Assembly: GCA_029252045.1 (NCBI GenBank) | Contig: JAQXCD010000022.1 | Location: 86,663 to 150,662 of the forward strand | Length of the DNA stretch: 64,000 nt | Origin: Sulfitobacter sp. | GTDB taxonomy: Bacteria; Pseudomonadota; Alphaproteobacteria; Rhodobacterales; Rhodobacteraceae | Reading direction: 5' to 3' | Program-made: the position numbers and the translations under genes | In this document: positions 26,466 through 62,625 of the stretch, piece after piece | How the letters are laid out: each line of letters starts with the position of its first letter | Position numbering within the stretch: position 1 is the stretch's first letter | Notes under the pieces: generated by a model | Seen by the model: only the letters and a program-made list of their open reading frames with translations | The model's database searches: none | Told to the model about the DNA's origin: nothing

Positions 26466-26814
26466 TTTGAAGAGGTGAGGGACGTGTGGCAAGGCCTTTG
26501 GCTGTTGGGGTGATATCGGCAGAATACGGTGAGCGGCAGGTTTGAGCTTAGTTCGCCGAATTCTGCGTGATGCATGGATGTCTTTTGTCAAGAGAGAGCC
26601 AAAAACCTTCCACAACTGGTTAGGTTTTGAACTGGGTTTGTGGCGGCGCGGATTTGGGTGGTTTTGGGCACTTCCAAAAAGGAGCGTTTTTGGAAGAGCC
26701 AGAAGTGTCACCGATGCAGGCGTTCTTCGCAATCGAACTGTGGCGGCTTTCCCAGACCTAATTCCTCACTTACACATTGGCCTTTAGAAGACATCTAGAC
26801 TGCGGAGGTGAATT
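26466..26814. other. 349-bp low-GC spacer, no convincing gene
   Basis: I find no supported gene. It holds a perfect 10-bp inverted repeat, CTTCCAAAAA (26671-26680) and TTTTTGGAAG (26687-26696) around GGAGCG, and a 7-bp inverted pair GCAGAAT/ATTCTGC (26519-26525, 26560-26566). The end supplies GGAGG (26804-26808) for the following gene. A short open frame at 26542-26787 lacks a credible start site and known motifs. Confidence 0.5.
26671..26696. repeat. Perfect 10-bp inverted repeat
   Basis: CTTCCAAAAA and TTTTTGGAAG surround a 6-base GGAGCG loop. The T-tract lies in the stem rather than after it, so this looks more like an operator, a small-RNA hairpin or an element scar than a standard terminator. 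Confidence 0.5.
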
Positions 26815-27735
26815 TTGGCGCAAGGAAATAACTCGAAGAACCATCACTGGTGGCCAGTTGGTTTGCAAAAATATTGGACTGACAGGCGTGGAGATCTTTC
26901 GTGGATTGAACCAAACGGCGCAACAAAAAAAAAGAGGTCAGCGAACAAGAAAATTGGTTATAAACGTTATGGTCATACGATGCTCAAGGGTAGTGTCTGG
27001 GAAAGTAATTTTGAGAGTAAATTTGATGTTGATAACGAGGTTCATCACATAATCAGTGGTATTTGTGACCTAAAACCTTTCGGACGAACGCCTTCAGAAT
27101 TCTTTACCATGCTCAGACTCACCCGAAAGAAGGACCGCACACTTCGGGATATGTGCAAGTTCTATCATCTAGACGAAAAACTTCACCGCAATTTACTTTT
27201 GCTTCTACACTCGCTCCTTATCAGAAGCCCTTCTAATAGATCCCAATACGAAGGTACTCCGAGATTGATCTGACTGCCTCCCAATGAAGACGTTGGAAAA
27301 GCCAACGTGATTCAGAACTACAGTATCGCAAAGAAGCTTTGTCAGAATGGGTTTATCTCAAATCAGTATTTCGTACTTTTACATTCACCTCTGAAAAAGT
27401 TTGTCTTCGGTGATGGAAGCCTCGACTGGTTGACCAGTGGTTTGATCGCAAATCGTATCAATGGGCGCGCCCTTCTACCGCTTACACCCCACATCTGCGT
27501 GTATTTCTGTACGCCAATGTCGATGCGGACAACGCCAAACTGTGCGTCTCTAAGTGCAGCCCCATGGATGGTGGATTGGGTAAACCAGATTACTCAGACC
27601 TACTCCAAGGATCAGCTCTTCTTTCTTGGGAAACCTCCCAAACTGATCGACGCTTTTCATCAGCAGAAATTCCTTGAACACAAAGAAAAAACTGACGCTT
27701 TAATCGGCATGCTAGATGAGGTCGCAGGCATCTGA
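26815..27735 (+). pseudogene. DUF4238-like gene interrupted by one in-frame TGA
   Basis: Translation begins at TTG 26815, six bases after a perfect GGAGG, with MAQGNNSKNHHWWPVGLQKY, similar to the N-terminal NHH pattern of DUF4238 proteins. After 152 codons a TGA at 27271-27273 stops the frame. The same frame continues to 27735 with sensible protein (LPPNEDVGKANVIQNYSIAK onwards; later LLPLTPHICVYF and PPKLIDAFHQQKF). The intact product would be about 306 residues. CGA to TGA is the likely change. Codon use and GC are lower than in the neighbours, which suggests transfer. Read-through at TGA-C is possible but unsupported. Confidence 0.65.
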
Positions 27736-58009: not shown

Positions 58010-58375
58010 ATGTCCCGTACAAAAGGTGGTACAGTTACCCACGCCCGTCACCGCAAGGTCATCAAGGCAGCCAAAGGCTATTATGGCCGTCGCAAGAGCA
58101 CCTTCAAGGTCGCGCGTCAGGCCGTCGACAAGGCCAACCAGTATGCAACCCGTGACCGTAAGGTTCGCAAGCGTAACTTCCGCGCATTGTGGATCCAGCG
58201 TATCAACGCGGCTGTTCGTATGCACGATGCAGAGCTGACATACTCCCGCTTCATCAACGGCCTGAACCTGGCCGGTATTGAAGTGGACCGCAAAGTTCTG
58301 GCCGATCTGGCCGTGAACGAGCCGGAAGCGTTTACAGCGATCGTAAAGCAAGCACAGGCGTCTCTGGCAGCCTGA
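58010..58375 (+). CDS. rplT: Ribosomal protein bL20
   Basis: A 121-residue basic protein ([20 protein letters not shown], then [12 protein letters not shown]). It is needed early in large-subunit assembly and represses its own operon in many bacteria. AAGGAGAG is the ribosome site. A strong terminator follows 26 bp after the stop. Confidence 0.97.
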
Positions 58376-58401
58376 TAGGCGCCGACGCTCTGAAAATTGA
58401 G

Positions 58402-58432
58402 AAAGCCGCGCCTTCGGGGGCGGCTTTTTTCG
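58402..58432 (+). terminator. Terminator of rpmI-rplT
   Basis: AAAGCCGCGCC and GGGGCGGCTTT pair around TTCG, a stable tetraloop, followed by a TTTT run. It separates the ribosomal operon from pheS. Confidence 0.93.
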
Positions 58433-58522
58433 TTTGTACAAGAGGGACACCAAACGCCGCATGGGTTGCGTTTGGCGGCGGTTCTGGTAGCAGGATTGCA
58501 ACATCGAGAGGACGCGGGCGAC

Positions 58523-59596
58523 ATGGACGATCTCAAGCAAAAATACATTTCAGCGATTGCAAATGCAGCTGATGAATCGGCGTTGGAAGACATCCGGCTT
58601 GCCGCTGTTGGCAAGAAGGGCGAAGTAGCCCTGAAGATGCGTGAACTGGGCAAGATGAGCCCTGAGGAGCGCCAGACAGCCGGCCCCGCGCTGAACGCGC
58701 TGAAGGACGAGATTAACAGCGCCTTGGCCGCCAAGAAGATGGCGCTGGGCGATGCGGCGCTGGACGAGCGGCTGCGCAGTGAATGGCTGGATGTGACCCT
58801 GCCCAGCCGTGGCCGCCCTGCGGGGACGCTGCACCCTGTGTCACAGGTCACCGAAGAGCTGACGGCGATCTTTGCCGAAATGGGTTTCAGCGTTGCCGAA
58901 GGGCCGCGCATTGATACCGACTGGTACAACTTTGATGCGCTCAACATTCCGGGCCACCACCCTGCACGCGCAGAGATGGACACGTTCTATATGGCGCGTG
59001 CAGAAGGCGACGACCGCCCGCCGCACGTCCTGCGCACGCATACCAGCCCTGTGCAAATCCGCACGATGGAGGCGCAGGGCGCGCCGTTGCGCATCATCTG
59101 CCCCGGTGGGGTTTACCGTGCCGATTATGACCAGACCCACACGCCGATGTTCCATCAGGTGGAGGGCTTGGCGATCGATAAAGACATCTCCATGGCGAAC
59201 CTGAAATGGACGCTGGAGGAATTCTTTGCCGCGTTCTTCGAGATCGACGGCATCAAGACCCGCTTCCGCGCCTCGCACTTTCCGTTCACCGAGCCGTCGG
59301 CAGAGGTGGATATCCAATGCTCATGGGTCGATGGACAGCTGCGTATTGGTGAGGGCGATGGATGGATGGAAGTCCTCGGTTCCGGCATGGTCCACCCCAA
59401 GGTGCTGGCGGCGGGCGGGATTGATCCTGACGTCTATCAGGGCTTTGCCTTTGGTATGGGCATCGACCGGATTGCGATGCTGAAGTACGGGATACCCGAT
59501 TTGCGCGCGTTCTTTGATTCAGACCTGCGCTGGCTGCGGCACTACGGGTTCGCGAGCTTGGACCAGCCGAATTTGCATGGTGGGTTGAGTAGGTGA
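58523..59596 (+). CDS. pheS: Phenylalanyl-tRNA synthetase alpha subunit
   Basis: The 357-residue catalytic subunit begins [20 protein letters not shown]. Class II motif 2 contains [17 protein letters not shown] and motif 3 lies in [13 protein letters not shown]. It charges tRNA-Phe together with PheT. The ATG at 58523 is preceded by GAGAGGACG. The stop codon overlaps a GTG (GTGA) of the inserted frame, which continues to pheT. Confidence 0.96.
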
Positions 59597-59697
59597 GGGT
59601 TGAGTATGTTATCGCTCTCTTCCGGACATTCAGGATTTCACAAGAGGAAAGAAGGATTGTTCAACATCGAACTGCTCCACTAGGCAATGAACTGAAT

Positions 59698-60135
59698 ATG
59701 GCTGGTCAGGTGGAAAACGCCGAGCGATGGATATCTGCTCTAGAAAGCAAAACGGGCACTCTACTAACTCACATATCAATGATGATTGCTATCACAGGGC
59801 TTATGCTTGCAATCAGCAACGACTCAATGTGGTATGAGGTGGTCTTGGCTTTAGAGTTGATATTCTATCTTTTGTTGGCCATGCTATGTATCCGCTGCCA
59901 AAAACACTATAGAACTGATGAGTTTTCTAAACCGATTTCAAGGGGTCGAGAATCAAAAAATCGCCCTCCTCATAATGTTTATCAGAGTGCTGTTTTTGGT
60001 GAGCTATTCTATCGGGAGCGGCTATTTCGCTTTATCCAGAGGACATTGTACGCTCTCACGTTCCTACTAATTCTGACCGTATTTTATGGACTCCTTGCCG
60101 ATGAGTTTGGTGTTCTTTCTGGAGGAAAATCATGA
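59698..60135 (+). CDS. Membrane protein inserted between pheS and pheT
   Basis: The 145-residue product (start at ATG 59698; GTG 59593 at the pheS stop would give 180) begins VENAERWISALESKTGTLL. It has three hydrophobic segments (about LLTHISMMIAITGLMLAI, VVLALELIFYLLLAMLCI and TLYALTFLLILTVFYGLL). The layout, an NAER-W-ESKTG-LL head then a helical pair and another helix, resembles Pycsar-type effector membrane proteins (PycTM), but I cannot confirm this and see no cyclase gene nearby. It has lower GC than its flanks. It overlaps pheT by ATGA, so it is translated with the synthetase. Confidence 0.65.
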   Translation: MAGQVENAERWISALESKTGTLLTHISMMIAITGLMLAISNDSMWYEVVLALELIFYLLLAMLCIRCQKHYRTDEFSKPISRGRESKNRPPHNVYQSAVFGELFYRERLFRFIQRTLYALTFLLILTVFYGLLADEFGVLSGGKS

Positions 60136-62531
60136 AATTCACACTCTCTTGGCTCAAAGAGCACCTCGACACCACGGCTTCGGTCGAAGAGATCACCTAT
60201 GCCCTGACCGATCTGGGTCTGGAAGTGGAGGGGGTCGAGGACCGTGGCGCTAAGCTGCGCGCGTTTACCTTGGGCTTTGTGAAATCCGCCGAGAAGCATC
60301 CCGATGCGGACCGGCTGCGCGTGTGTCAGGTCGAGACGGACGAGGGGCTGCAACAGATCATCTGTGGTGCGCCCAATGCGCGGGAGGGGATTACGGTCGT
60401 GATCGCCAAGCCCGGCGTTTATGTGCCCGGCATCGACACCACCATTGGCGTCGGCAAAATTCGCGGGATCGAGAGTTTTGGCATGATGGCCTCCGAGCGG
60501 GAGCTGGAGCTGTCGGAAGAGCATGACGGGATTATCGAGCTGCCGTGGGGTAATGTGGGCGACAGCTTTGTCGATTGGCTGGCCGAGAATGATCCGGCCA
60601 AGGTCGATCCGGTGATCGAGATTGCGATTACGCCGAACCGTCCTGATGCGCTGGGCGTGCGCGGCATTGCGCGTGATCTGGCGGCGCGTGGCTTGGGCAA
60701 GCTGAAGCCGCGTGACGTGGATGTGATCAAAGGCGCGTTCCCGTGCCCCGTGAGCGTCAGCATTGACGAGGACACGCTGGAGCAGTGCCCAGTGTTCTAT
60801 GGCCGCGTCATTCGCGGTGTGAAGAACGGGCCAAGCCCTGTGTGGTTGCAGGACAAGCTGCGCGCCATTGGTCTGCGGCCGATCAGCTTCCTTGTGGATG
60901 TGACCAACTTCTACACCTTTGACCGCAACCGCCCGCTGCATGTGTTTGACGCGGACAAGATTGCCGGCAACGCCCTGCGCGTTCATCGCGCCAAAGGCGG
61001 CGAGACCTTGGTGGCGTTGGACGACAAAGAATACACAATGCAAGAAGGCATGACGCTGATTTCCGACGCCAATGGTGTGGAAAGCATCGGCGGCGTGATG
61101 GGCGGTCTGCCCTCTGGTGTGACCGACGAGACGGTTAATGTGTTCATCGAGGCGGCGTATTTCGATACGGTGCGCACGGCGTATACGGGCCGCGCGCTCA
61201 AGATAAATTCGGACGCGCGGTACCGGTTCGAGCGGGGGATCGACCCCGAGTGGACGCCCTACGGGATCGAGCATGCCACGCGGATGATCCTTGACCACGC
61301 GGGCGGTGAGCCGTCGGATGTGGTGGTTGCCGGCAAGATACCGGATACAGCGCGCGCCTACCGTCTGAACGCCAAGCGGGTGGTTTCGCTGGTGGGCATG
61401 GAAATTCCTGAGAGCGAGCAGCGCCAGACCTTGACCGCGCTGGGGTTCCGTCTGGAGGGCGATATGGCCCATGTGCCCAGCTGGCGCCCCGATGTGCAGG
61501 GTGAGGCCGATCTGGTGGAAGAAGTGGCGCGGATTGCGTCCTTGACCAAGCTGGAAGGTGTGCCTTTGCCGCGTCTGACGGCGGGTGTGCCGCGCCCTGT
61601 GATGTCCCCCGTGCAGCGGCGTGAAGTGGCCGCGCGGCGCACTGCGGCGGCACTCGGCTATCATGAGTGTGTGACCTATAGCTTTATCGACCAGCCCTCG
61701 GCGGCGCTGTTTGGCGGCGGTACCGATGCGACACGTCTGGAAAACCCGATCAGCAATGACATGAGCCACATGCGCCCTGCGTTGTTGCCCGGTCTGTTGC
61801 AAGCCGCGGCACGTAATCAGGCGCGCGGCTTTGCCGATATGGCGCTGTTCGAGGTTGGGCCTGCGTTCAGCGGGGGCGAGCCCGGAGAGCAACACATGCT
61901 GGTGACGGGTTTGCTGGTTGGCCGGACCGGCCCGAAAGATGTCTTGGGTGCCGCGCGTGATGTTGATGTATTTGATGTCAAAGCCGATGCAGAGGCAATT
62001 CTGGCCGCCATTGGCGCGCCCGCCAAGGTGCAAATCCTGCGTGGGGCCGAAGAGTGGTGGCATCCAGGCCGTCACGGCAAAATCTGCCTTGGGCCGAAGA
62101 AGGTGCTGTGTGTCTTTGGTGAAGTCCACCCGAAGGTATTGGCCGCGATGGATGTGAAGGGGCCTGCGATGGCCTTTACCATCTGGCCTGCCGAAGTGCC
62201 GCTGCCGCGTAAGATTGGGGCCACACGGCCGGCGCTGAAGATTAGCGACCTGCAAGCGGTCGAGCGTGATTTTGCATTTGTGGTGGATGCGGATGTGGAT
62301 GCGCTGACCTTGGTAAATGCTGCGATGGGTGCTGATAAGGTACTGATCGAAGACGTGCGTGTGTTTGATGAATTCATTGGCGGCAGTTTGGGGGAGGGTA
62401 AGAAGTCCCTCGCGCTGACCGTGCGTTTGCAGCCGCGTGACCAGACGTTGAAGGATGCGGATATCGAAGCCGTTGGCGCGCGGGTTATCGCATCGGTCAC
62501 CAAGGTCACGGGCGGTGTTTTGCGCGGGTGA
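60132..62531 (+). CDS. pheT: Phenylalanyl-tRNA synthetase beta subunit
   Basis: The 799-residue protein begins MKFTLSWLKEHLDTTASVEE. An EMAP-type tRNA-binding domain lies at about 40-150 (ADRLRVCQVETDEG; ICGAPNAREG), then B3/B4 editing segments, B5, and a C-terminal FDX-ACB anticodon-binding domain (about 705-799). With PheS it forms the alpha2-beta2 synthetase and proofreads Tyr. Its start overlaps the inserted membrane-protein gene. Confidence 0.96.
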   Translation: MKFTLSWLKEHLDTTASVEEITYALTDLGLEVEGVEDRGAKLRAFTLGFVKSAEKHPDADRLRVCQVETDEGLQQIICGAPNAREGITVVIAKPGVYVPGIDTTIGVGKIRGIESFGMMASERELELSEEHDGIIELPWGNVGDSFVDWLAENDPAKVDPVIEIAITPNRPDALGVRGIARDLAARGLGKLKPRDVDVIKGAFPCPVSVSIDEDTLEQCPVFYGRVIRGVKNGPSPVWLQDKLRAIGLRPISFLVDVTNFYTFDRNRPLHVFDADKIAGNALRVHRAKGGETLVALDDKEYTMQEGMTLISDANGVESIGGVMGGLPSGVTDETVNVFIEAAYFDTVRTAYTGRALKINSDARYRFERGIDPEWTPYGIEHATRMILDHAGGEPSDVVVAGKIPDTARAYRLNAKRVVSLVGMEIPESEQRQTLTALGFRLEGDMAHVPSWRPDVQGEADLVEEVARIASLTKLEGVPLPRLTAGVPRPVMSPVQRREVAARRTAAALGYHECVTYSFIDQPSAALFGGGTDATRLENPISNDMSHMRPALLPGLLQAAARNQARGFADMALFEVGPAFSGGEPGEQHMLVTGLLVGRTGPKDVLGAARDVDVFDVKADAEAILAAIGAPAKVQILRGAEEWWHPGRHGKICLGPKKVLCVFGEVHPKVLAAMDVKGPAMAFTIWPAEVPLPRKIGATRPALKISDLQAVERDFAFVVDADVDALTLVNAAMGADKVLIEDVRVFDEFIGGSLGEGKKSLALTVRLQPRDQTLKDADIEAVGARVIASVTKVTGGVLRG

Positions 62532-62625
62532 TCTAACGCCGCTGCTGTATGTGTGGCGGCGGCGGGATTGAGTTTAGAGGCACAATAAAGAAGGAGCGTG
62601 GCGCGCGTTCTGCAAAGGAGTAACT

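Follow-up and report, generated by a model that had tools for sequence, protein, structure and literature searches.

What is a gene of foreign appearance doing between the two subunit genes of phenylalanyl-tRNA synthetase, and how did it get there? The question is raised by a stretch of 64,000 nucleotides from Sulfitobacter sp. (hereafter the window), in which a single open reading frame, here called the slot gene, occupies the interval between pheS and pheT (Table 1). The reading favoured here, to which a probability of roughly 0.55 is given, is that pheS and pheT enclose a cargo slot whose content varies between species and which the slot gene fills in the window. The gene likely encodes a small phage-defence membrane effector, its translation is predicted to proceed by re-initiation after pheS, and it likely arrived by recombination through its pheS and pheT flanks.

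A low-GC gene between pheS and pheT

The initial annotation had described a foreign-looking, low-GC gene inside pheS-pheT, joined to both neighbours by overlapping codons, and this description holds. An ORF of 180 codons is present, its GC content of 43.3% lies below the 59.3% of the window (only two stretches of which reach so low in windows of 540 bases), and it overlaps pheS by GTGA and pheT by ATGA. The slot gene is real, since it has 11 database homologues that are 53–98% identical, and its GTG start is supported because several homologues open likewise (M/V-R-x-E-H) and the N-terminus is mostly common to them. A site scan of the slot found no promoter-like site inside it, and an Rfam scan of nt 58300–60500 returned two matches, both below threshold. 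The source assembly comprises 3.08 Mb with a completeness of 90.17, so that 9.8% of the genome is possibly missing.

Table 1. Features of the pheS-pheT region of the window. Terminator-like sites are close to chance in number (five found, 4.1 expected).
Feature	Position (nt)	Strand	Basis
Slot gene (180 aa), predicted membrane protein resembling PycTM	59593..60135	+	GTG start; ORF call, profile match, homologues, structure model
pheS, phenylalanyl-tRNA synthetase alpha subunit	58523..59596	+	ORF; matched in 59/62 Sulfitobacter genomes
pheT, phenylalanyl-tRNA synthetase beta subunit	60132..62531	+	ORF; matched in 60/62 Sulfitobacter genomes
GTGA, slot-gene start codon overlapping pheS stop codon	59593..59596	+	sequence
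ATGA, pheT start codon overlapping slot-gene stop codon	60132..60135	+	sequence
GGAGG, Shine-Dalgarno-like for pheT, within slot-gene 3' end	60121..60125	+	sequence, 4-mer count
36-nt pheS tail, AT-rich third positions, most alike among start-coupled carriers	59558..59593	+	identity comparison
Terminator-like site, rplT-pheS interval	58409..58430	+	consensus match alone; weak
Terminator-like site, 3' of pheT	62539..62575	+	consensus match alone

Width of the pheS-pheT gap

Outside the family Rhodobacteraceae the two genes nearly touch. Among 106 alphaproteobacterial genomes, 103 gave a PheT match, and the better-scoring 79 (one of them from Rhodobacteraceae) were searched for PheS. The gap was measurable in 75 of the 78 genomes of other families, with a median of 8 bp; 68 of these 75 gaps are 60 bp or less, four are at least 150 bp, and 24 overlap (by one base, in the measure used). 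The Rhodobacteraceae were sampled with 394 genomes, about one per genus, of which 388 gave a PheT match; PheS was sought at the best 150 places and in two additional genomes (G206 and G061; G numbers denote genomes and L numbers loci), and a distance was obtained for 132 of 151 genomes (G061 added), the remaining 19 being unmeasurable. With G000, G055 and G138 left out of the count (the last for a negative distance), the median gap over 129 genera is 842 bp, in a sample that consists of the best PheT scorers and is skewed to close relatives; 110 gaps are at least 150 bp wide and four are 60 bp or less. A set of 80 named loci, which partly overlaps this sample, gave 68 measurable gaps with a median of 802 bp, 57 of them at least 150 bp. 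Within Sulfitobacter, 58 of 62 genomes (the window's own included) yielded a distance, ranging from 66 to 2399 bp, and 56 of the 58 reach 150 bp. The widened gap is restricted to Rhodobacteraceae in the sample used. Two gaps of more than 13 kb, 16.7 kb in G204 (L007) and 13.7 kb in G080 (L008), were excluded from the profile scans of cargo described below.

Overlapping codons at both ends of the cargo

The double overlap seen in the window recurs, and this recurrence, with the purifying selection described below, makes it more than a chance arrangement. When the 56 Sulfitobacter gaps that reach 150 bp are examined, an ORF of 60 aa or more starts on the pheS stop codon in 20, always as GTGA, and in 19 such an ORF has its stop on the start codon of pheT. 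Fourteen (the window and 13 others) are filled exactly, by one ORF running from GTGA to ATGA; the GC content of these exact fills is 41.2–52.7% against 57.2–63.8% for their flanks, and 10 of them carry at least one predicted membrane segment. In the remaining Rhodobacteraceae set a start-coupled ORF was found in 22 of 110 gaps and an exact fill in four of 110. Shine-Dalgarno-like 4-mers precede pheT in 51 of 58 Sulfitobacter slots, in 8 of the 14 exact fills versus 43 of the 44 others; as a control, they occur in 386 of 2900 random 15-mers from the gaps. The lower frequency in exact fills would fit reliance on coupling, with pheT reached by re-initiation. Ribosomes ending pheS would then re-start at the GTG of the slot gene, translate it and pass on to pheT through the ATGA. 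A cassette of this kind would need no separate promoter, being carried on the housekeeping transcript, and any damage to it could endanger PheT synthesis; the selection against polar loss envisaged in the initial annotation would follow from such an arrangement.

Cargo types and turnover

The 20 start-coupled Sulfitobacter ORFs fall into 14 BLAST clusters. In an alignment of several clusters (A5; mean column identity 20%), one membrane helix is followed by a helical part, a common layout which suggests that some clusters may be distant relatives. A homologue search with this one-helix type returned at least eight matches among 7995 candidates scored, all to unnamed proteins, and none of its 19 members matched NCBIfam. 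Content changes even between near neighbours: the flanks closest to those of the window, in G449, are 96.4% identical, and the G449 slot gene has no detectable similarity to that of the window. When each of the 56 Sulfitobacter genomes was compared with its nearest-flank neighbour, some gap homologue was common to the two in 32 cases and none in 24.

Among 150 Rhodobacteraceae gap ORFs, the Pfam families found at E ≤ 0.001 include GATase (glutamine amidotransferase, 19), YrhK (18), ASCH (11), esterase-like hydrolases (up to 12), Cupin_2 (4), BLUF (3) and DUF2513 (3), with HepT-like, NTP_transf_2 (MNT-type nucleotidyltransferase) and Fic occurring once each, in a tally that covers 25 of the 31 families matched. 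From a reading of the sequences, the HepT/MNT pair is assigned to G087 and Fic to G221. With PADLOC, four of the ORFs matched the PycTM model PDLC02363 at E ≤ 0.01, and a small number of candidate-defence models were each matched by a single ORF. No integrase or mobile-element gene was found in the window slot or among those 25 of 31 families. Of ten Sulfitobacter slot proteins scanned with Pfam, one is a DarT (G441) and one a DUF2513 protein (G452), and the other eight gave no match above cut-off. The DarT (PF14487, of the DarTG system; Pfam E 3e-17, above cut-off, PADLOC 1.3e-14) is from Sulfitobacter sp. F26204. It belongs to a different family from the window protein, and the remaining 298 bp of its gap leave little room for the usual antitoxin, DarG. 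Its gene lies at nt 300–818 of L187, and also in L195. Genes for YrhK-like, GATase, esterase and ASCH proteins recur across genera in the gap (L102, L111 and others) and may be older residents of the slot.

Phage defence is suggested by the kinship of the window protein to PycTM (see below) together with the DarT, HepT/MNT and Fic genes that occupy the slot in other genomes; since much of the cargo is ordinary or without an assigned family, defence is a likely rather than a demonstrated use. The mixed content is also what would be expected if the cassettes were neutral or selfish hitch-hikers, at a junction that tolerates short promoterless ORFs and keeps them because leaving would break pheT expression. 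Such an account, which we regard as rather unlikely, gains from the often enzymatic nature of the cargo, from the exact GTGA/ATGA fit, which would explain retention without any benefit, and from the lack of a defence profile match (PADLOC, E ≤ 0.1) in nine of the ten Sulfitobacter slot proteins scanned. Against it, particular membrane-protein types recur at pheS-pheT across genera, and the slot cassettes common to two species are under purifying selection in both pairs tested, with dN/dS of 0.10 for G401/G433 and of 0.05, with saturated dS, for G449/G436.

It is very unlikely that the cassettes instead serve the PheRS operon, for example by setting the PheS:PheT ratio or as membrane-bound sensors of phenylalanine or of tRNA charging. 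Their location within the operon and their coupling at both ends would suit such a role, but the unrelated proteins of the 14 clusters would need to share one job, and in other families a touching pheS-pheT pair suffices.

The window protein and its resemblance to PycTM

The initial annotation had likened the window protein to the PycTM effectors of cyclic-nucleotide defence while seeing no cyclase nearby, and had proposed a search for other cargo at the same junction in relatives, which was found in many. The likeness to PycTM stands in part: the PADLOC PycTM models match the protein weakly but genuinely, at E 7.9e-5 (PDLC02363), 0.0011 and 0.0034 over residues 38–101 in all (residues 40–101 for PDLC02363), whereas the Pfam model PF18967 remained unmatched at E values up to 10. 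No other Pfam family, and nothing in NCBIfam, scored above cut-off. One homologue (P0006) carries a precomputed PF18967 label, and our own scan of it gave no PF18967 match at E ≤ 1.

Two papers describe PycTM as a receptor for cyclic pyrimidines which, once bound to them, disrupts the integrity of the membrane (PMC11224242, PMC12489823). The window protein is similar to it in size, in having a helical N-terminus followed by membrane helices, and in an E/D-x-K-x-x-x-LL stretch, in addition to the profile match. Three hydrophobic segments are seen by Kyte-Doolittle count. A structure model places helices at residues 33–74, 79–103 and 127–177; it is poor (mean pLDDT 65.7), and a fold search with it returned 213 matches at E ≤ 10, none of them at E ≤ 0.001. 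A sequence search of solved structures gave no match. The gene differs from a Pycsar effector in its position inside pheS-pheT and in having no PycC cyclase beside it, its neighbours being pheS and pheT. The protein may work in the manner of PycTM, a resemblance that falls short of demonstrated membership of a Pycsar system. Nor is there a dedicated antitoxin partner in the window slot, which is filled by the single ORF.

The cyclase could conceivably be encoded elsewhere in the genome, in which case the gene would supply the effector for a genuine Pycsar system or for another one based on cyclic nucleotides. This is very improbable: the PADLOC PycTM match and the possibly missing 9.8% of the genome leave room for it, but a search for class III cyclases (PF00211) found none in the 90%-complete assembly, and the same search, which covers PF00211-type cyclases only, was positive in 5 of 14 control genomes. 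The trigger of the window protein is not a PycC-type cyclase found in the source assembly.

The distribution of relatives bears on the favoured reading as well. Three alignments were used: A1, a profile built from close database homologues of the window protein and chosen without regard to context; A4, a second slot family; and A3, a wider alignment combining the A1 group and A4. The A1 profile matched one of 62 Sulfitobacter genomes (the window's own) and five of 388 genomes of Rhodobacteraceae, so a housekeeping gene of the PheRS operon, universally conserved at this site, was rejected. In four of these five genomes, each of another genus and one of them the window's own, the match follows pheS immediately on its 3' side. 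The fifth, in G308, is a distant relative that adjoins an integrase-like ORF (L006/L134), and the family can therefore also sit on a mobile element. The A3 profile found 15 places in 14 of the 388 genomes, 14 of them directly 3' of pheS; this count rests on a mixed profile, nine of the 15 matches being A3 members and the six non-members all lying 3' of pheS. PDLC02363 matches 10 of the 18 members of A3 at E ≤ 0.01 (best 6.6e-6). Profile-profile comparison did not join the A1 group to A4 (probability 1.75), and the two were rejected as proven homologues. In G053 (L135, L286), some 1.4 kb separates pheT from pheS, the two genes are on opposite strands and a weak A3 match comes after pheS; the operon appears to have been split by rearrangement. 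Direct similarity gave no sign of a phage or plasmid gene, and that reading was rejected too: tblastn of plasmids and phages gave no match; viral contigs contained no relative of the slot gene, and a pattern search of genome contigs, suited to close relatives only, likewise gave none.

Remnants of the flanking genes

Severed pieces of the flanking genes lie beside cassettes in seven genomes, two of them recognised by matches of 11–15 nt and one at E 5e-4. Remnants of the pheT head are found at cassette ends in G385, G375, G424, G405, G087 and G206, and remnants of the pheS tail in G385 and G296. The most elaborate arrangement is that of G385, where pheS is followed by an A1-type gene, a fused pheT-head/pheS-tail remnant, an ORF that opens the second cassette at the GTG of this pheS-tail piece, another PycTM-like gene and finally pheT. 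G296 has two cargos with a pheS-tail remnant between them. In G375, a frame-broken one-helix cassette has its ATGA end on a 33-codon pheT-head remnant, 97% identical to the real head, while in G424, G405 and G087 the pheT-head remnant at the cassette stop is followed by other cargo and then by the real pheT. G206 (L133) has pheS, a slot gene and a 31-codon pheT-head remnant (the match at E 5e-4), with no full pheT in the 11 kb stretch examined. Five of nine matches in the remnant search (E 0.002–0.008, one of them a third match in G385) were dropped as chance, as was one of two in a further search (G429, E 0.007, opposite strand). The start word of pheT occurs in 204,042 bp of gap four times on the plus strand and once on the minus strand, and all four plus-strand matches are at a cassette end; a chance origin of any single match is not negligible.

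Severed pheT heads and pheS tails beside cassettes suggest that the cassettes travel with their flanks and are swapped by recombination, and exchange through the flanks is likely on the evidence of these remnants. Donor DNA carrying a pheS tail, a cassette and a pheT head would recombine with the locus already present, giving a clean swap if a double crossover takes place. An imperfect event would leave two cargos in tandem, separated by a cut-off piece of pheT head or pheS tail.

The pheS tail itself was compared between carriers and non-carriers. The mean identity of the last 36 nt is 0.890 in the 19 start-coupled carriers versus 0.796 in 38 others, and that of the pheS body, as control, 0.863 versus 0.835; the tail difference was reached by 4 of 1000 permutations, in a test confounded by kinship and by the selection of GTGA genomes, in which pheS ends in TGA. 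In the window, 13 nt around the pheS stop (GGGTTGAGTAGGT, in the region 59582–59609) recur with one mismatch at nt 59597–59609, at the start of the slot gene. This 12/13 repeat exceeds all 380 control draws. That a site-specific recombinase recognising the pheS 3' end places the cassettes, as integrases do at the 3' ends of tRNA and other genes, is most improbable: the alikeness of the tail among carriers, its near copy right after the pheS stop of the window and the integrase-like neighbour of the G308 relative speak for it, but the near copy is not general (one of 19 coupled cassettes, the next best reaching 11/13) and no integrase was found in the window slot or among the 25 of 31 Pfam families noted above.

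Proposed mechanism and comparison with known systems

In the favoured reading of a variable slot filled through homologous flanks, the window protein would have its helical N-terminus in the cytoplasm, span the membrane with roughly three helices, lie inactive in the inner membrane and, on infection, impair the membrane as reported for PycTM. A wider proposal, which we put forward tentatively as possible though short of probable, is that Rhodobacteraceae possess an integrase-free slot for one-gene cassettes inside a coupled essential operon. The pheS tail and pheT head would act as homology arms through which each cassette replaces its predecessor, and the PheRS operon would lend expression and protection, giving fast-turning small membrane effectors a single address.

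Several known systems offer partial parallels. Defence hotspots and islands are fixed chromosomal sites with fast-changing cargo that includes toxin and defence genes. The slot shares the fixed site and this kind of changing cargo, but differs in that its cargo consists of single genes fitted between two essential genes by codon overlap, neither an integrase nor a mobile element was found in it, and the remnants point to homologous recombination. In mosaic operons, or in situ displacement, horizontal transfer swaps genes inside an otherwise inherited operon, as foreign genes appear to be swapped here; at pheS-pheT, however, the turnover is confined to a single junction and concerns additional, unrelated genes, not the replacement of operon members by orthologues. 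Chromosomal integrons exchange one-gene promoterless cassettes at a fixed site, features that the slot has in common with them, whereas the window slot has no integron integrase and its cassette is framed by the pheS stop and the pheT start. A literature search found no paper on pheS-pheT cargo, most subscription journals being outside its scope.

If the proposal is true, defence-like genes could be found between two universal genes across a large marine family, without a defence-island signal to mark them, and a list of small unnamed membrane proteins would be at hand to try against phages. The locus would also be a natural experiment on the entry of foreign genes into an essential operon without breakage, and would offer a testable reason for the retention of a cassette, namely that its loss endangers PheT.

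The wider neighbourhood

The rplT-pheS gap is variable too, from 94 to 3806 bp with a median of 722 bp, as measured in 56 of the 80 named loci (L193–L272), so that the neighbourhood is plastic beyond the pheS-pheT slot alone. Coupling is absent from that gap, because it apparently lies between two transcription units. One record titled Nocardioides marinus (L218) has a Rhodobacteraceae-like pheS, 87% identical, and is probably mislabelled or contaminated. The other low-GC stretch of the window, nt 26713–27512, holds two short ORFs (26815–27273 and 27307–27735), possibly fragments of a single foreign gene.
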